A stretch of 64,000 nucleotides of DNA from contig NZ_VORZ01000002.1 of NCBI RefSeq assembly GCF_007997305.1, positions 62,001 to 126,000 of the forward strand. Reading direction: 5' to 3'. The stretch is from Psychrobacter frigidicola (GTDB lineage: Bacteria > Pseudomonadota > Gammaproteobacteria > Pseudomonadales > Moraxellaceae). Positions within the stretch are counted from its first letter, which is position 1, and every line of letters begins with the position of its first letter. The notes beneath the pieces were generated by a model. It did not search any database and was not told the DNA's origin. It saw only the letters and a program-made list of their open reading frames with translations. Positions 38,413 through 48,371 of this stretch are shown here, piece by piece. The position numbers were made by a program, and so were the translations under genes.

Positions 38413-38759
38413 TGGTAAGCTCAGTTTGGTATGAGAGTAATTGTATTTAGGCAAGTTTTAGATAGGTAATTCAGCGTGATATTAATATTATCCAAGCCCT
38501 AGGAACAGAACGCTATATTTTAGTATTTGACAGGTGAAAAGCCCCGTATTTAATGCAGTAATCATTGCCATTGTATCGCGCGTCACAGATAGGATAACTC
38601 ACATTAAGCTATAGTTAGTCTTAATGTTGAATACTTTACCCTTAAATGAACTTAGCTGATATCAGCAGGCTTTGCTACGATAAAGATCGTAACGTTAATA
38701 GCAAACGTAAGCTTCATCACTGGAAAAAATTAAATCATAACTTAATAATAGGAAGTATG

Positions 38760-39509
38760 ATGTCAACTTATCAGCAGAGTCTGAAGCAAGAACAAACACC
38801 TAAGCAAAAGACGTTAGGCATCATCGGTGGTATGAGTTGGGAAAGTACGCAAAGCTATTACCGCTTGATTAACCAAGGTGTCAAAGCAAAATTGGGTGGT
38901 CTGCATTCAGCCGATTTATTGATTCATAGTGTCGATTTGGCACCGGTTGCAATCTCATAAGCACAAGGCGAATGGGATGAATTGGGTAGCATGATGGCAT
39001 GCAGTGCCAAACGCTTACAAGCAGCAGACGCGCAAGGTTTGCTCATCGCGACCAATACCATGCATAAAGTCGTGGATTACGTCCAAGCAGCGACTGACTT
39101 ACCGATTATTCATATTGCTGATGCGACCGCAGACGCGATTAAGCAGCAAGGTTTAACCAAGATTGCGTTACTCGGTACACAGTTCACTATGACTGAGGAT
39201 TTTTATAAACAGCGCCTTAAATCGGCTGGCTTGCAAGTGCTCATACCGGATACTGAAGCACGGGCTGAGGTGCATCGTATTATCTATGCTGAGTTATGCC
39301 AAGGATAATTGCTTGATAGCTCTCGCCAGTATTATATGCAAGTGATTGAAGGTTTAGCTCAGCAAGGATGTGAGGGCGTGATATTAGGCTGTACCGAGAT
39401 TGGACTACTCATCAGCCAAGCAGACAGTCCTATTCCAGTATTTGATACCACCGCTATTCATGCGGCAGCAGCGGTGGAGTTTTTATTAGGTAATGAAAAG
39501 TCTAGTTAA
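38760..39509 (+). pseudogene. Aspartate/glutamate racemase family protein, interrupted by two TAA codons
   Basis: A single reading frame of 250 codons from the ATG at 38760 (AGGA upstream) encodes a complete Asp/Glu racemase of the YgeA type. It has an N-terminal TLGIIGGMSWESTQSYY, ATNTMHK with the catalytic Thr, and [11 protein letters not shown] with the catalytic Cys. It is broken in frame by TAA at 38958-38960 and again at 39306-39308. Homologues run through both positions, so each looks like a point change (for example CAA or AAA to TAA). All active-site residues remain, implying recent inactivation. A sequencing error is less likely to produce two stops of the same kind. An upstream in-frame ATG at 38646 has no ribosome site. 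Confidence 0.88.
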
Positions 39510-41403: not shown

Positions 41404-41470
41404 ATAAAATGCAACGCCTTACCTTACCCATTGTGACAGCTGTTCTACATCGTTATTTTTCCCAGTCATG

Positions 41471-41593
41471 ATGCGAGAGATTGGTCATGTAACGATGATA
41501 GAGGCTGTGGAGCGAACCGCTGAGGATTATAAAGCGTTTTGTGAAGGGCTAAAGAAACAGTCATTTACACATAATGTGTTAAGGGGTTATTGA
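41471..41593 (+). pseudogene. Remnant 3' end of a lipase-like alpha/beta hydrolase gene
   Basis: The frame reads IGHVTMIEAVERTAEDYKAF and CEGLKKQ before a stop at 41593. It aligns with the C-terminus of the intact lipase (GHVPMIEAVKETADDYKMF) including the catalytic His. Everything upstream of this block is missing or unrecognisable, so it cannot encode a hydrolase. Confidence 0.75.
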
Positions 41594-41658: not shown

Positions 41659-42723
41659 CTAACTCTCTTTTACCAAGCGCTCTAGTAATTCAATCGTCTG
41701 TTCTTGCCTGACCAACGCAACACATTGTCCTGCCCATAACGAGAGATGTTCCGCGTCTTCATTTCTCCCAGCATTAGCACGCATAGTATTGGTCATAGCA
41801 TTTAACTGCGGATATGGTGGTAGTCTCTCTTCTTTATCAAAAATATTGGCATTATCAAATTGTGAAAAATCACGTAGATAACCGTTCACCAAACCGCGTG
41901 CTTGCTTCCCAGAAAATAGCCGAGTCAAACGAGTTTCAGTGCTACGCGTACCAGTGCTCGCATCAAGTAACGCTTGCTTATAAGTGGCATTAATACCTGA
42001 TTGATCGGTCGTTAAAAATGCCGTACCTATTTGCGCCAATTGTGCACCTGCGGCTTGTACGGCTTTAATATCTTGTCCGCTCATAATACCACCAGCGGCA
42101 ATTAACGGAATATTGGTACAAGCTCGGGTTTGGCCAATTAAGGTCAGTAGTCCTAACGGATCAGATTCGCTTTGGGGTAACCAACCGCCACGATGTCCAC
42201 CCGCTTCCATACCTTGTACACATACCGCATCGGCACCACTATCTGCCCATGCTTTTGCCTCAAGCGGATGGTTTGCTGTACCAATAACCCGAGTGCCCAG
42301 CTGTTGCAAGCGTTGAACCTGCTCAGCGCTCAGGATACCAAAGGTAAAGCTAGCAACTGGTACTGGATTATCATAGAGCACTTGTAGCTGCTGAGCGAAG
42401 CTATGCGCTGGTCTATCAGGCAGTACCGCATCAATTTGCTGCTGTTGATAATACTGCGTCAGCCATGCTGGCATTGAAGTATCAAAAGTGCGGGCATCAT
42501 GCTCTGATAACACCATTAGATTAACCATAAAAGGTTTGTCAGTAAGCACTCTAATGGCATTAATCTGCTCATTTAACGCGGCTGGACTGGTTGCACCGCC
42601 ACCTAATGAGCCAAGGCCACCAAAATTACTGACCGTCGCAATCAGCTCAGGGGTGGTCGCACCGCCTGCCATTGGGGCTTGAATGATAGGATAGTTTATT
42701 CCGAGCTGCGCTAATAATGTCAT
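41659..42723 (-). CDS. Nitronate monooxygenase (2-nitropropane dioxygenase family)
   Basis: FMN-dependent TIM-barrel enzyme that oxidises nitronates such as propionate 3-nitronate. In the 354-aa protein, YPIIQAPMAGGATTPELIATVS and GGLGSLGGG form the FMN-binding start. AVCVQGMEAGGHRGG is the class signature with the catalytic His, and IPLIAAGGIMSGQDIKAVQAAGAQLAQIGTAF binds the phosphate. The ATG at 42723 is preferred over the GTG at 42732 because AGGA is correctly spaced only for it. The physiological substrate is unknown. Confidence 0.92.
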   Translation of the reverse strand: MTLLAQLGINYPIIQAPMAGGATTPELIATVSNFGGLGSLGGGATSPAALNEQINAIRVLTDKPFMVNLMVLSEHDARTFDTSMPAWLTQYYQQQQIDAVLPDRPAHSFAQQLQVLYDNPVPVASFTFGILSAEQVQRLQQLGTRVIGTANHPLEAKAWADSGADAVCVQGMEAGGHRGGWLPQSESDPLGLLTLIGQTRACTNIPLIAAGGIMSGQDIKAVQAAGAQLAQIGTAFLTTDQSGINATYKQALLDASTGTRSTETRLTRLFSGKQARGLVNGYLRDFSQFDNANIFDKEERLPPYPQLNAMTNTMRANAGRNEDAEHLSLWAGQCVALVRQEQTIELLERLVKES

Positions 42724-42884
42724 TGGATACACGTCCTATGATTGATATCTGGTTTTCTATAACTAACTGTAGTGTAGTTTTGAGAGCAGGGCAATTGCTA
42801 ATATTGCTTAAGCTCAAAATTAGTTAGCTTGTGCTAAAATTATGGCTTTTAATTAATTTTGCCAGTTATTGATAGGACAGTTTG

Positions 42885-43826
42885 ATGACATTAATGCGCA
42901 CAAGTATTGCAGCTCTACTGACTCTTTCTATAGTGGGCTGTACCACGCCCAACACCTTTACGGTTGCTACGACTCAAAAGCTGGTACAGCATGAGCGCTT
43001 TAAATCAAGCCTACAGACGAAGGCCTTTATGCTGGCGTCCGGCGATGAAATCACTTATCTAGAAGGTGGCAATTTAGCTGGCGAGCCGTTATTGCTGATT
43101 CACGGTTTTGGCGGTAATAAAGATAACTTTACCCGTATCGCGGATAAATTAAATGGCTATCACTTGATTATCCCAGACCTGCTGGGTTTTGGTAACTCTA
43201 GTAAACCAGACGACGCAGACTATCGCGCCGATGCGCAAGCGCAGCGTTTGCATGAGCTGCTACAAGCGAAAGGTATGGCATCCGCTATTCATATCGGCGG
43301 CAATTCGATGGGTGGCAGTATCAGTGTCGCCTATGCCGCCATGCATCCTGACAATGTTAAAAGCTTATGGCTACTGGATAGCGCCGGCTTTTGGTCAGCA
43401 GGGCTATATGACCGATACCAAAACGCTACTGCGGATAATAACCCACTCGTCATCGCCACTACTCAAGAGTATTTTAAACTGTATAAATTGGTGATGAATA
43501 AGCCGCCCTTTATTCCTAAAACGGTGCAAGCGGTTTTTGCACAAGAAAACATCGCCAATCGTGACCTACAAGCCAAAATCATCGAGCAAATCGTTGAAGA
43601 CAACGTAGAGGCGCGCGCTAAAGTCGTAGCCCAATATAATATTCCCACGCTGATTGTTTGGGGCGCTGAGGACAAAGTAATAAAGACTGAGACTGCCGAA
43701 TTGATGAGTGAGTTGATGCCGCAAGCGCAAGTTATCATCATGCCCAATGTTGGTCATGTGCCGATGATAGAGGCGGTAAAAGAGACGGCGGATGATTATA
43801 AAATGTTTCGGGCGGGTTTGGAGTAG
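42885..43826 (+). CDS. Lipoprotein alpha/beta hydrolase, similar to Psychrobacter lipase 1
   Basis: Secreted or membrane-anchored esterase/lipase. The 313-aa protein has a lipoprotein signal peptide ending in LLTLSIVGC, with the acylated Cys at 19. The alpha/beta hydrolase core has oxyanion segment LLIHGFGGNKDN, nucleophile Ser141 in GGNSMGGS, Asp263 in WGAEDKVI and His291 in NVGHVPM. Layout and spacing match the lipase 1 family known from Psychrobacter and Moraxella. AGGAC precedes the ATG at 42885. A decayed 3' end of a second gene of this type lies at 41471-41593. No chaperone (lipase foldase) gene adjoins it. Confidence 0.88.
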   Translation: MTLMRTSIAALLTLSIVGCTTPNTFTVATTQKLVQHERFKSSLQTKAFMLASGDEITYLEGGNLAGEPLLLIHGFGGNKDNFTRIADKLNGYHLIIPDLLGFGNSSKPDDADYRADAQAQRLHELLQAKGMASAIHIGGNSMGGSISVAYAAMHPDNVKSLWLLDSAGFWSAGLYDRYQNATADNNPLVIATTQEYFKLYKLVMNKPPFIPKTVQAVFAQENIANRDLQAKIIEQIVEDNVEARAKVVAQYNIPTLIVWGAEDKVIKTETAELMSELMPQAQVIIMPNVGHVPMIEAVKETADDYKMFRAGLE

Positions 43827-43830
43827 GGAT

Positions 43831-43880
43831 TTTGACTACGGATTGGTAGTTAAAATATTTGACTATAGATTTGTAGTTAA
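43831..43880. repeat. Imperfect 23-base direct repeat after the lipase gene
   Basis: Two copies (43831-43853 and 43858-43880) begin TTTGACTA and end GTAGTTAA, with about four mismatches between them. They directly follow the lipase stop at 43824-43826. This is probably a small tandem duplication. Confidence 0.6.
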
Positions 43881-44095
43881 GTATATCTGATTCAATCGGA
43901 GCTAAACCACTCCTTCATGGAAAGGTTTGCGGTAATAATTAAAATATAATCTTATCAGCTAGATTTTATGACTTCAATAAATTGAATACGGAAGTTCCAC
44001 TTCACTATACCTGCACCATAACGCTATAGAAAAATCAATCAAACTTCATGATAGAACTATACTAATATAGTTATCTACTTAAAATTAGGTGTGAA

Positions 44096-47000
44096 ATGGA
44101 TAGAAATTGGCAAGATTTCAAAGAGTTGAAAGGTGGTATAGAAGGTGCAAGAGCAGCTTTCGAGACTGCTTGTGAAACATTATTCCGAAAAATTCACTCT
44201 GATCAAGACGTAAGTCAAATTGAAGTAAAACAGGGTGACGGTGGAATTGACATCTTCATTGGTAGTCTTGGAGTTGAGCCAATAACAGTAATTCAATGTA
44301 AGTTTTTTCTATACGATTTTGGAGACTCACAGAAAGATCAAATAAGAAAATCCTTCAAAACCGCCATTGAATCAGAAAAATATGAGTTAGAGAGGTGGAT
44401 ATTATGTATCCCTAGCGTTATGGATATAGATTCTACTAGTTGGTGGTTTAAGTGGCGTAAAAAAACCACCGACAATCTAGGAAAAAATGAGAATTTTATA
44501 TCATTGAAAAATGGTAACGAATTAATAGACCTAATGAAAGAATACGGTTTATATAATCAAGTATTTCAAACAGTAGAACCAAACAATCTTTCAAAACAGC
44601 TGCTACTCGAAATCGGTGAGAAAAGTCTATCAAATCTTAATTTTGATGCTGAATTATTTATTGAACGAAATTTTAAACCTATTCATCAAAATACGTTAAT
44701 TGTAGGTGTTTCAGGGTCAGGTAAAACTACTTACTGCATTAATGTACTAAAAAGACATTTAGCACTTCAAAAACCTGTATTAGTGCTTGACGATAATACA
44801 GTCAACCAAGCTCTATCTATTGAGGAAGCTATCGATATTGAGTTACGTCGATATGCCAACGAATTAGTATCTCAATCAGGTCATCAAGCATTAGAGTTTT
44901 GTTCAATCGATGAACCTTTAATAATCTTAGTAGAAGATATTAATCGCTCATCAGATAGCGCAAGACTGCTGAGAAAGTTGATAGATTGGTCAAAGAATGG
45001 TGCTAATTTTATTTTACTTTGCCCAGTATGGCATAGGTTAATAGCTGGCTTAAGCTACGAGGAAAAGAAAAGTTTGGAAGCCTGTTTCAAACTCGAGTAT
45101 TTAGAAAGCTATAATGAAAATGAAGCGAAAAGAGCAATAATTGCGAGAGTAACAAAAGAAAAAATCAGAATTGATGAGCTGTCCGCAGCAAATATTGCAC
45201 AACAACTAGGTTATGACCCACTGTTAATTTCACTAGCAAACTTAGCGGAATTTCATGAAAACTCTAATGTTATTGAAGAGTATGTGCATAACACCGTTCA
45301 GTCTATTGCTACTAGGGACAATTTGTTGGTTTATGAAATAGAAGATGCAATCGATGAATATGGATTATATCTATTTCAGAACAAAAAGGTGCAAGGAGAA
45401 TCTCGAGACTTAAGAGGGTTATCTCAAGAGTCTCAAAAAGTATTGAAGCAAGTTCTAAATGATGGTCGTTTATTTAGACAAGCTTTTGAAAGTCCAAATT
45501 ACACTATTCTGTCACGGCATGACCGCCTTAATTATTACATTATCGCAAAATCCATAATTAGTTATCTAGAAGATGATAACTTTGATTTAACAGACCCTTA
45601 TTTTTCAGAGATTATTGGTATCTCATGTGCCTTAGCAAGTCTCGATAAAAATAAGCTGTATCAAATTAGTATCCAAAATAGTCTTGTGGCATTTCATTGC
45701 TACGCATTCTCTACAAAAACTAATTCATCATACCTAAACACTGCAGTCAATAACGTCAAAACATGGTTAGAAACCCCTGAGCATCAGTTTGATGTCTACG
45801 ATTCTCAACAATATCAATCGTTAATAATTTTAAATGACGTGTTTCATACTTCAGTACCTGAAATTTTAAATTTATATAGTGATAGATATCATAACCCCTT
45901 TTTTTACCAAATTAGCTTCAAGCAGGGAAACTTAAGCAATGGATTACAATGGATATCGACCCATCATTTTGATACAAATGTAACTGGTGAAAAACAAATT
46001 ATTGATCATGTTTTTAATAAATATGGAGAAGGTTTAGTAAAGCAGATTTGTGAGAATTTGATAGATGAAAGTATTAATTATGAAGCAAAGCATCAGTTAT
46101 TACGTTTAATTGGCTATACCGAAAATACTAGTTTTGCAAATGCTGTTAGGACAGCATGGCATTTAATACCCAATGACGAAAAAGACTATCGTATGTTTTT
46201 TTGGGCTGCTGCTAGAGTATGTGATGATGACCCGCATTCATTATTAGAACCCATATTTGACTATTGGGAAAGCTTGTCAGATGAAGAAAATGAGTATCAT
46301 TCTACGGATAGAGCAGGTTTCGCGGCACATGGTTTAAAGTGGAAATTTAGCGAGTATGTACCTCATAAGTCAATTGCTTTCATACTTCAAGAAGCAGAAA
46401 AGAGAGATAGCTTGAATTTCTATATTTTGTACATGCTTAGTGATGTTGATAATGCTGATGTCTTAGAAGCGCAAGCAACGCGCTTAGCTAATAGTAGACG
46501 GCAAGGTAATTCTATGCCAAGTGCGGTATTAGATAATTTGCGTAGAAATTCTGAAGGTGGAAAAATACTTTCAATTGAAAGTAAGGAAAGGTTGTTATCT
46601 ATTTCTGAAAGCTTAGAGAATGACGAATTTCTAAGAAAGAGTGCTTTTAATTTATGGGAAATGAGTCCATATCATGATGATTTAGTAGTTCTACAAAAAA
46701 TAACTAATAGCGATATTCGCTTTGAAACCGCATTGATGGGTCGAGCAAAACGTAAGGATATGACAGCTATTGATGAGCTAGTAGAGAAAATAAATGACGA
46801 CTCTAGTTATTGGTGGCAAGCTACACGTTATATTTGGCACGAAAAATTCGAGCAAATATTTGAAGAGAAAATTGCAAATGTTAGTGAGTCCTCAGACTCA
46901 TACTCAAATGAATTATGGATGGTAGCTGAGTTATACGAAAAGCTTGAAATTCAAAAAGCAGAGGAAATCCTAATCAAATATTGGAACAACCTTTCTTATC

Positions 47001-47617
47001 ATTATAGATTTATCCAAATAGCTTTAATGATTGCAACGCCCAAACTACAGGAATTGGTAGCGAGCACACTTGAAAATGAGAAGAACATTAAAGAGGTTTT
47101 TAAGTTATCTAAATTTACTTTAGGAATAAGAACTGAAGGTAGAAAAGGTGTTTATCGTTATGAGCAAATGAAGGCTCTACAGCCATATTTTAAATATCAT
47201 GATGAAAGATATCTATCTGGTTATAGTGAAATTTGTTTGAAGCAAGGATGGGAAGATATTTCTCAAGTACTAGAACCCCTGTTAATAGATAAAGGTCTCA
47301 GGAGGTTTGTTGAAGTTGATACCTCAAGATTAAATGACTCTTTAGAAAATAATAGCAATTTTGTGCATTGGTGGATATCTGATCGAAAGAAAGAAGGTTG
47401 GGCGCATCAAAGAGTAGTAGAAGCTTTATTCAATTGGTTCAATCAGCATCAATCTGAGTACGCACTTGATGTTATCTTTAAACCATTATCTGAAAGCGGA
47501 AAGCGCACAGACTATTTGCGTTTGGAAAATATCATAAGAAATATAGATAATCTTTCGAACAAAGAAGAAGTTTTAAGTAAGCTATTTTTTAATATTTATT
47601 CACGGAGCTTAGAGTAA
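44096..47617 (+). CDS. Mrr-like nuclease fused to STAND-like NTPase with helical C-terminus (Avs-like defence protein)
   Basis: Large 1173-aa predicted defence protein. The N-terminus (about 1-150) looks like a PD-(D/E)xK restriction-endonuclease-like domain: Glu43, Asp52 in GDGGIDIF and Gln67-Cys-Lys69 in VIQCKFF, the Mrr-type spacing. A P-loop NTPase follows, with Walker A GVSGSGKTT (204-212) and Walker B LIILVEDINRS (Glu280-Asp281). A winged-helix-like region and a long alpha-helical repeat-like C-terminus (about 480-1173), rich in Glu, Asn, Tyr and Trp, complete it. This nuclease-NTPase-repeat order is that of STAND-type phage sensors such as Avs proteins. It is shorter than typical Avs2-4, so family membership is inference. 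AGGTG precedes the ATG. It is AT-rich and inserted alone between the lipase and DsrE-like genes. Confidence 0.75.
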   Translation: MDRNWQDFKELKGGIEGARAAFETACETLFRKIHSDQDVSQIEVKQGDGGIDIFIGSLGVEPITVIQCKFFLYDFGDSQKDQIRKSFKTAIESEKYELERWILCIPSVMDIDSTSWWFKWRKKTTDNLGKNENFISLKNGNELIDLMKEYGLYNQVFQTVEPNNLSKQLLLEIGEKSLSNLNFDAELFIERNFKPIHQNTLIVGVSGSGKTTYCINVLKRHLALQKPVLVLDDNTVNQALSIEEAIDIELRRYANELVSQSGHQALEFCSIDEPLIILVEDINRSSDSARLLRKLIDWSKNGANFILLCPVWHRLIAGLSYEEKKSLEACFKLEYLESYNENEAKRAIIARVTKEKIRIDELSAANIAQQLGYDPLLISLANLAEFHENSNVIEEYVHNTVQSIATRDNLLVYEIEDAIDEYGLYLFQNKKVQGESRDLRGLSQESQKVLKQVLNDGRLFRQAFESPNYTILSRHDRLNYYIIAKSIISYLEDDNFDLTDPYFSEIIGISCALASLDKNKLYQISIQNSLVAFHCYAFSTKTNSSYLNTAVNNVKTWLETPEHQFDVYDSQQYQSLIILNDVFHTSVPEILNLYSDRYHNPFFYQISFKQGNLSNGLQWISTHHFDTNVTGEKQIIDHVFNKYGEGLVKQICENLIDESINYEAKHQLLRLIGYTENTSFANAVRTAWHLIPNDEKDYRMFFWAAARVCDDDPHSLLEPIFDYWESLSDEENEYHSTDRAGFAAHGLKWKFSEYVPHKSIAFILQEAEKRDSLNFYILYMLSDVDNADVLEAQATRLANSRRQGNSMPSAVLDNLRRNSEGGKILSIESKERLLSISESLENDEFLRKSAFNLWEMSPYHDDLVVLQKITNSDIRFETALMGRAKRKDMTAIDELVEKINDDSSYWWQATRYIWHEKFEQIFEEKIANVSESSDSYSNELWMVAELYEKLEIQKAEEILIKYWNNLSYHYRFIQIALMIATPKLQELVASTLENEKNIKEVFKLSKFTLGIRTEGRKGVYRYEQMKALQPYFKYHDERYLSGYSEICLKQGWEDISQVLEPLLIDKGLRRFVEVDTSRLNDSLENNSNFVHWWISDRKKEGWAHQRVVEALFNWFNQHQSEYALDVIFKPLSESGKRTDYLRLENIIRNIDNLSNKEEVLSKLFFNIYSRSLE

Positions 47618-47780
47618 ATGAAATTCTAGATATTTTACGGAGCTTATACATCACAAAATTAAATCATTTTTATATGTTTTGGGCGAGGCTGATTCCTAGT
47701 CAATCTAAAAATATTATAAATATTAGGTTTTTGTGGTTTAGGTAAAGAGTCGGATTAAAAAATATTTTAGTCACGGGTTT

Positions 47781-47849
47781 TCAACGATGAATTTTATCAG
47801 CCTCTATCCAATCTGGCACACAAGGCGCAGCGCTAACTGCTAGTTTGAC
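47781..47849 (-). pseudogene. Remnant 3' end of a thioesterase gene
   Basis: On the minus strand the frame reads VKLAVSAAPCVPDWIEADKI then HR and stop. The intact thioesterase at 48572-49114 ends WHLAPEPWVQEWIDGDKDHR and five further residues. The shared pattern is LA, P-x-V, W-I-(D/E), D-K-x-H-R. Upstream frames carry stops, so only the gene end survives. Confidence 0.65.
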
Positions 47850-47910
47850 TTACCTAAAGTAATAAGCTAATAGAGTGGACTTAGTTATCTAAACTCATAC
47901 GCTCTAAATA

Positions 47911-47946
47911 AAAAAAAGGGAAATCCTATCTAAAGAATTTCCCTTA
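47911..47946 (-). terminator. Terminator of the DsrE-like gene
   Basis: On the minus strand AAGGGAAAT pairs with ATTTCCCTT over a 12-base loop and is followed by a T-run. It is 51 bases past the DsrE-like stop. Confidence 0.75.
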
Positions 47947-47996
47947 TAAGCCTAATGTCTTCTATTGGCTCTCTATTACACTAGCCTAATTATTTA

Positions 47997-48371
47997 TCAG
48001 TTCAACTGCAACGAGCCTTTTGCACTCATAAGCAGCTCAACCACGTCATCGCCACTAATGATACTGAAGCGCGGATCGATCGCTGATTCTTCAACATTAT
48101 TATGCACCATGCAGGCTTTACAGACCAATACTTGCCCGCCTTTCTCCATAAAAGCCGCCAGCAATTTAGCAGCAGGCTCAAACGGTGCACCGATATTAAT
48201 GCTATCTAGTGCCTTAGGTGGCGCTAAATGTACCGCATCCATCATCAAAATAACCGTTGCAGAATGGCCTTTTTCTAGCGCTTTGACTGCCATGGTAAAG
48301 GCTAAAGTAATTTTGTTTGGGTTGCTGTCATTATCAAATAAAGTACCGACATAATCTGTAGTGGTAAGCAT
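47997..48371 (-). CDS. DsrE family protein
   Basis: Small soluble protein (124 aa) of the DsrE/DsrF-like fold. ITLAFTMAVKALEKGHSATVILMMDAVHLA forms the first beta-alpha unit, and GGQVLVCKACMVHNN carries two Cys where sulfur-carrying relatives have their active Cys. Whether it transfers sulfur is unknown; it is not in a dsr or tus gene set. GGAGAG precedes the ATG at 48371. A diverged copy of its 3' end is found at 41356-41403. Confidence 0.82.
   Translation of the reverse strand: MLTTTDYVGTLFDNDSNPNKITLAFTMAVKALEKGHSATVILMMDAVHLAPPKALDSINIGAPFEPAAKLLAAFMEKGGQVLVCKACMVHNNVEESAIDPRFSIISGDDVVELLMSAKGSLQLN

Follow-up and report, generated by a model that had tools for sequence, protein, structure and literature searches.

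The stretch analysed here, hereafter the window, comprises 64,000 nucleotides of the Psychrobacter frigidicola contig NZ_VORZ01000002.1. At 44096-47617 (+) it carries one gene whose 1173-amino-acid (aa) product joins a nuclease, an NTPase resembling the signal transduction ATPases with numerous domains (STAND) and a helical, solenoid-like region. The protein is probably a single-gene antiviral sensor and effector similar to nucleotide-binding leucine-rich repeat (NLR) receptors and antiviral STAND (Avs) proteins, in which oligomerisation would activate DNA cutting. This interpretation is based on the match to LmuA, the invariant motifs of the core (residues 160-1173), the profile alignment to Avs2 with hhalign, the different N-termini found on the core elsewhere, and the location in a variable site filled with defence genes. 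A nuclease-armed STAND-like candidate phage sensor had been proposed in an earlier sequence-only reading, and the comparisons reported below support that interpretation.

Structure of the gene

The gene is one intact open reading frame of 1173 codons with an ATG start, and AGGTGTGAA stands immediately 5' of the start. The chance of 1173 open codons at this base composition is p ~1e-39, and none of the other five frames stays open for more than 83 codons; thus the frame is not a chance product. The gene has 33.8% GC, with 26% at third codon positions (GC3). The window outside the insert has 42.3% GC, and 17 other genes have a mean GC3 of 40% (minimum 30%). No second gene was recognised inside the insert. 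The extent, AT-richness and isolation of the gene, all suggested by the sequence-only reading, are therefore borne out. Its domain order of a PD-(D/E)xK N-terminus, a central NTPase and a helical remainder is supported by the sequence and weakly by structure models of low confidence. The features of the gene are as follows.

44096..47617, +, single gene for a nuclease - STAND-like NTPase - helical (solenoid-like) protein of 1173 aa (open-frame listing, composition)
44096..44572, +, Mrr/LmuA-type PD-(D/E)XK nuclease domain, residues 1-159, with Glu23, Asp52, Gln67 and Lys69 (PADLOC, Pfam, motif alignment)
44705..44731, +, Walker A, GVSGSGKTT, residues 204-212 (S206, G207, G209 and K210 invariant in 10 aligned sequences including the window)
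44924..44944, +, Walker B-like ILVEDIN, residues 277-283 (D281 and N283 invariant)
45206..45226, +, GxxP-type motif LGYDPLL, residues 371-377, at the place of the STAND GxP (G372, D374 and P375 invariant; DPL aligned with NPL of Avs2 by hhalign)
45515..45523, +, RHD motif, residues 474-476, presumably MHD-like, closing the presumed winged-helix part (R474, H475 and D476 invariant)
45536..47614, +, all-helical C-terminal region, HEAT/ARM-like, presumed sensor, residues ~481-1173 (secondary structure, two AlphaFold2 (AF2) models, Foldseek and VIA rows)

The N-terminal nuclease domain

The motif GD-GID...QxK is intact in residues 1-159, which we take to represent the Mrr-like form of PD-(D/E)XK. 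E23, D52, Q67 and K69 correspond to the catalytic D...(D/E/Q)xK motif of these nucleases. Residues 16-189 match positions 24-212 of the 343-position PADLOC model for LmuA with E=8.3e-25, and Pfam Mrr_cat_2 is matched below its cut-off (E=0.0044). F22, E23, D48, G50, Q67 and K69 are invariant among five aligned sequences: the window protein, a protein in which the nuclease is joined to a beta-propeller, two LmuA proteins from Streptomyces, and one Avs2. Position 52 is D in four of them, including the window protein, and E in the Avs2 relative. Asp52 and Lys69 keep the presumed catalytic roles assigned to them earlier. Glu43, assigned with them, does not: position 43 is E, E, A, A and R in the five sequences, and the invariant glutamate is Glu23. 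One of the two Streptomyces relatives is a true Lamassu effector, as its neighbour is called LmuB by PADLOC with E=6.7e-227; the neighbour was checked for this one only. The predicted order of elements (H3-35, E42-47, E50-55, E65-67, H77-92, E96-98) fits the nuclease fold, with block values of the predicted local distance difference test (pLDDT) of 24-41 over residues 1-160. The motif expected of a nuclease fold in residues 1-150, on which the sequence-only reading depended, is intact, and the fold itself is predicted with low confidence.

The same nuclease module is found in a different context in an Acinetobacter-genus genome (L009, 1504-3261; loci and genomes are given by L and G numbers). 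There the module, 38% identical and matching LmuA with E=1.5e-21, is fused to a PQQ-type beta-propeller (Pfam PQQ_2) in place of the NTPase.

The NTPase region

Both motifs required of a P-loop NTPase in STAND proteins, Walker A and Walker B, are present, and the NTPase is followed by a motif of the GxP type with the spacing GxxP rather than the strict GxP. The positions S206, G207, G209, K210, D281, N283, C309, P310, G372, D374, P375, R474, H475 and D476 are among those invariant in the 10 aligned core sequences. We read GxxP and RHD by analogy as the STAND GxP and a switch, RHD being presumably a functional counterpart of MHD. With hhalign, the P-loop, Walker B and DPL/NPL were aligned in order with the Avs2-type NTPase (P=8e-5, probability 61%), the target consisting of two proteins (L010 and L011), of which L010 is Avs2 by PADLOC. 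In Pfam at E<=0.1, the 10 members matched nSTAND3 (6/10), nSTAND5 (5/10), NACHT (3/10), NB-ARC (3/10), nSTAND1 (1/10) and the general AAA_22 (10/10).

The fusion of an Mrr-like nuclease to an NTPase would also suit a stand-alone, NTP-driven restriction enzyme of the type IV kind, in which modified or foreign DNA would be the direct target of the nuclease and the NTPase would serve as the translocation motor. This is improbable, as GxxP and RHD appear to fit a switch rather than a helicase or McrB, and as the weak Pfam matches include nSTAND3, nSTAND5, NACHT and NB-ARC, though many general AAA models too. Membership in MADS was also considered, based on a match to mad8 (E=5.8e-5, residues 199-364), and was rejected: the match covers only the NTPase region, and the same model matches an unrelated ATPase of a sister locus.

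The C-terminal region

Beyond about residue 390, only helices are predicted in the two AF2 models, which have a mean pLDDT of 40.7 for the whole protein and 58.9 for residues 557-1173. VIA-align with the C-terminal 617 residues gave a best Z of 8.5, which is within the chance range for helical repeats. The structural neighbours of this region are mostly helical-repeat proteins of the HEAT/ARM type, none of them significant, and no STAND or Avs chain was seen among the neighbour rows shown for the C-terminal half. A sequence search of the Protein Data Bank gave no match to the window protein at E<=1, and three profiles gave chance-level rows only. The models thus weakly suggest a HEAT/ARM-like region. 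About 700 helical residues had been expected here; the helical character is found in both models at low confidence, while the match to solenoid-type proteins has no significance.

If this region is the sensor, its trigger could be something other than a phage product. The same machine may sense plasmids or other foreign DNA structures, as in Lamassu/DdmABC, with DNA or a host repair factor as the ligand of the helical region. In favour of this, the nuclease is of the Lamassu type, Lamassu systems also act on plasmids (PMC10586767), and a few of the VIA rows are DNA-bound FANCI/FANCD2, yet with Z within the chance range just mentioned. On the other hand, none of the flanking genes scanned encodes an SMC-like sensor as in Lamassu, and the sensor regions of Avs bind phage proteins (PMC12931631). 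We consider a foreign-DNA trigger rather unlikely, and a phage-made trigger remains the preferred reading.

Comparison with Avs and Lamassu

The Avs2 protein (L010) shares F22, E23, D48, G50, Q67 and K69 with the window nuclease, which places both in the same broad PD-(D/E)XK type. It is likewise a large single protein, and its NTPase motifs stand in the same order. Of the Avs layout of effector, STAND NTPase and C-terminal repeats, the nuclease and NTPase are recognised here by sequence, and a helical C-terminus is predicted in low-confidence models. The PADLOC profiles for Avs2 have 1375-1576 positions against 1173 aa in the window protein, and the match between the NTPase profiles reaches only 61%. 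No PADLOC model for Avs was matched at E<=1, only LmuA and mad8 being listed, with HMMER filters that drop most matches above ~0.1.

The likeness to LmuA lies in the effector domain (residues 16-189). The match ends at model position 212 of 343, so that the window protein lacks the C-terminal part of LmuA, and the nuclease is fused instead to the STAND-like NTPase and the helical region. No SMC-like LmuB or LmuC was found with Pfam among seven flanking genes scanned. By sequence comparison, then, the protein is not Avs according to the PADLOC models, and is not Lamassu according to its neighbourhood or a full-length match. By analogy, it probably works like Avs or Lamassu.

The core family and its distribution

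The first 159 residues of the window protein are not shared by the relatives of its core, of which searches of plasmids and genomes gave 12 other loci, or 13 with the window.

Acinetobacter-genus genomes: L005, L013, L001 and L008 (a contig-edge piece)
Aliarcobacter plasmids: L014 and L015
Single plasmids: Sphingomonas L016 and Pseudanabaena L017
Haloarchaeal plasmids: L018 and L019
Further genomes of the same phylum as the window: L023 and L024 (partial)

The 12 loci are not all independent; L014 and L015 encode nearly one protein, and L008 is by eye almost like L013 where covered. In the core alignment of 10 proteins including the window protein, from which L008, L023 and L024 were left out, the nine relatives are 21-36% identical to the window core. 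The protein WP_067731967.1 from a plasmid of Acinetobacter sp. NCu2D-2 covers the whole core at 35% identity with the same NTPase motifs. The members of its family are annotated as 'ATP-binding protein' or 'hypothetical protein', and their N-terminal ~180 residues form a different module with FE...PxD...K.

The family is rare in the genomes searched. With the whole protein as query, 8 of 348 Moraxellaceae genomes were matched, five of which contain core members, the own genome included (G000, G461, G471, G539, G524); in G543, G657 and G488 the match is only in the nuclease domain. In the class, residues 159-1173 matched 2 of 369 genomes, the own genome and G351, and the latter was not counted as its protein reads by eye like primosomal protein N'. 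The profile matched 8 of the 369 genomes of the window's class, where the own genome is the sole core member. It matched 6 of 299 genomes in the phylum, with three core members (G000, G879, G899), and 4 of 289 in the class of G899, with one. Weak profile matches (E 1e-3 to 5e-6, ~40-100 columns) were rejected as core members, since they cover the P-loop region only. No viral relatives were found in phage records or IMG/VR contigs.

Defence or toxin-antitoxin genes are present in the annotated stretch around four of the seven plasmid relatives: a Phd/YefM-RelE pair (L013), a Lit-family phage exclusion protein (L014), an AbiEii toxin (L016) and a YhaV toxin (L017). A recombinase is nearby in L015 and L018, and the annotated stretch of L019 contains no defence, toxin-antitoxin or recombinase gene. 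In Acinetobacter variabilis (L001, 5458-9000), what looks like an insertion element splits the gene near residue 1062: the intervening segment has a 319-aa frame on the opposite strand, and the match resumes beyond it for the last 110 residues.

None of the models searched convincingly covers the core family, and no match to a well-characterised family that is both close and full-length, which would have spoken against the sequence-only reading, was found in the libraries searched, among them Pfam and PADLOC. A literature search on LmuA/Lamassu/STAND, nSTAND and Avs, which covered titles and abstract starts with subscription papers mostly outside reach, gave no description of the family, and on Psychrobacter defence hotspots it returned no paper. 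The passages available from PMC13092281, PMC8195603, PMC7159879, PMC12799240, PMC12931631, PMC10586767 and PMC12409362 do not describe it, and no paper was found under the protein accessions of six relatives. By these sequence comparisons, the full-length combination and the core family are without a name in the libraries searched, while the parts themselves are of known kinds.

Two N-termini on one core

All 12 other core loci have the different N-terminal module of ~180 residues. In ten aligned sequences (L005, L013-L019, L023, L024), the invariant positions of this module include F17, E18, P51, D53 and K82, and there is no QxK. Pfam gave no confident match to it, and the PADLOC LmuA model did not match the five proteins with this N-terminus that were scanned. 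An FE pair and a G/P-x-D element are common to both modules. The second N-terminus may be a nuclease whose lysine has moved, or a relative without catalytic activity.

In the maximum likelihood tree of 11 cores, the window core groups with three Acinetobacter cores with 100/100 support; the tree, without the partial L008 and L024, has a midpoint root only, three long-branch rows and 81-88% support at deeper forks. The sequences are most simply explained if the N-terminus was replaced once in the lineage of the window; this rests on one genome because only one protein with this combination of nuclease and core was found. On balance we favour, with reserve, the view that the core is a new prokaryotic NLR-like sensor family distributed from Moraxellaceae to cyanobacteria and haloarchaea, which elsewhere has a diverged nuclease-like N-terminus (FE, PxD and lysine kept; no QxK) of unassigned activity, and which in the lineage of the window was re-armed with a catalytic nuclease of the Lamassu type. 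Effector exchange among defence systems is described in PMC12799240.

The insertion site

The gene lies in an AT-rich insert of 4.2 kb between two genes that also occur in sister species.

43827..47990, strand not applicable, AT-rich inserted segment, 33.4% GC, between the alpha/beta-hydrolase and DsrE-family genes (comparison with sister loci, composition)
42882..43826, +, left flank, alpha/beta hydrolase, Pfam Abhydrolase_1 (present in sister genomes)
41659-42732, nitronate monooxygenase beyond the left-flank hydrolase (Pfam; present in sister genomes)
47997..48371, -, right flank, DsrE-family gene (Pfam; found in 18 of 25 sister loci with both sides)

By Pfam, the seven flanking genes are MatE, NMO, abhydrolase, DsrE, 4HBT, abhydrolase and UPF0029. 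The left-flank hydrolase gene was found in 34 of 60 genomes of the genus, the own genome included and one match covering a short piece only. The loci of 26 of the 33 other positive genomes were examined; one is at a contig edge, and both sides were placed in 25. In seven of these (L040, L041, L046, L047, L049, L050, L064) no DsrE gene was found, and the next conserved gene served as the right border instead. Six loci (L039, L040, L041, L042, L056, L057) are empty, with a gap of 18-352 nt, and 19 have a gap of 1.1-5.2 kb with other cargo. Blastn of the insert against six sister loci (E<=1e-5) gave a sole match of 55 nt at the left edge.

A scan of 19 cargo proteins, covering part of the cargo frames, gave strong PADLOC defence matches (E<1e-10) in eight loci.

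L045: Dazbog DzbA and DzbB
L050: RelA/SpoT protein of a PADLOC candidate family
L053: AbiU
L054: prokaryotic viperin
L060: AriA/OLD
L061: type II restriction-modification pair
L063: GmrSD-type
L064: AbiJ

L048 is counted as the ninth by its 77% protein identity to L050, not by a scan of its own. With 9 of 19 cargo loci having strong defence matches, the window gene occupies a site often used by sister species for defence genes, and the site looks like a defence hotspot. The remaining 10 of 19 have no strong defence match, which would be compatible with a regulator or another non-defence protein placed in the variable site by chance. The intact nuclease motif, the AT-rich single-gene insert and the defence or toxin-antitoxin genes beside four of seven plasmid relatives make such a protein most improbable.

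The commonest cargo (5/19) is a two-gene P-loop ATPase unit of ~396 and 692 aa (L044 4014-7272, L046, L047 and L049, and also L058, judged by its size and by weak matches of the same kind). Among L044, L046, L047 and L049 the large proteins are 61-67% identical. Neither PADLOC nor Pfam gave a strong match (lowest PADLOC E 2e-6, four proteins scanned), and the unit is a candidate undescribed system. Other cargo without a strong match includes HNH proteins in L062 (E 2e-6) and L052 (unscanned, 87% identical to that of L062), and the cargo of L043, L051 and L055, the last with a protein 95% identical to a scanned L054 protein without match.

As to how the segment was inserted, no integrase or transposase frame was recognised by eye in the insert, there is no tRNA in the window, and no convincing flanking direct repeats were seen. 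The sequence-only reading described a locus littered with gene-end remnants; this holds at the one place checked, 41470-41543, where the 3' end of an alpha/beta-hydrolase gene has been left behind. Two hydrolase copies enclose the nitronate monooxygenase gene in L040, so that one copy was probably lost in the window. Further away, at 38646-39509, a frame that resembles by eye an aspartate/glutamate racemase has two in-frame stops; three sister loci give single-piece tblastn matches, and the frame is probably a pseudogene.

Proposed mechanism

In the mechanism that we propose by analogy with Avs and with the tetramerising LmuA effector, the resting protein would be held off with a bound nucleotide. 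The C-terminal helical region (~480-1173) would recognise a phage-made molecule, upon which the STAND-like NTPase (~160-480) would exchange its nucleotide and oligomerise. Several N-terminal LmuA-type PD-(D/E)XK nucleases would thus be brought together, and the clustered nucleases would cut DNA, of the phage and probably of the host, so that the infection is stopped. The trigger, oligomerisation, DNA cutting and phage protection of the 1173-aa protein are inferred from related systems. In Avs1-4, recognition of phage proteins is followed by cleavage of both phage and host genomes by the nuclease effectors (PMC12931631). The LmuA effector, once liberated, assembles into a homo-tetramer, which activates its Cap4 nuclease domain (PMC12409362).

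Several points weigh against this proposal. The STAND-type Pfam matches are weak: the best E values of the members are between 9.3e-5 and 2.2e-3, and the window protein itself matches STAND/AAA models below the cut-off only (nSTAND5 E 0.13 and 12.5 bits, where the cut-off is 34). After the fourth strand, where an arginine is found in NACHT proteins, the core has CPxW. The whole-protein AF2 model, calculated from an alignment of two rows (the window protein and part of L001), has pLDDT of ~41, and thus neither the nuclease nor the NTPase fold is shown by structure. Foldseek with the C-terminal 617 residues gave 678 rows at E<=10 and none at E<=0.001. The hhalign comparison of the two N-terminal modules aligned 34 columns near their ends with a probability of 1.6% (P=0.031), which does not show homology. 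The 9/19 share of defence cargo stands without a shuffled or random-site control. Finally, the published tetramer model concerns LmuA with a Cap4 domain, which may be of another nuclease type than that of the window protein.

Significance

If the proposal is true, the known single-gene immune receptors of prokaryotes gain a rare family of STAND-like sensors that falls outside the Avs and Lamassu models compared. The variable site marks a place to collect further undescribed defence genes of the genus. The same core with two N-termini would be a natural pair with which to study the function of the second, apparently altered N-terminus. A natural effector transplant, if confirmed, would allow a direct test of whether sensors and effectors can be freely exchanged in such receptors.

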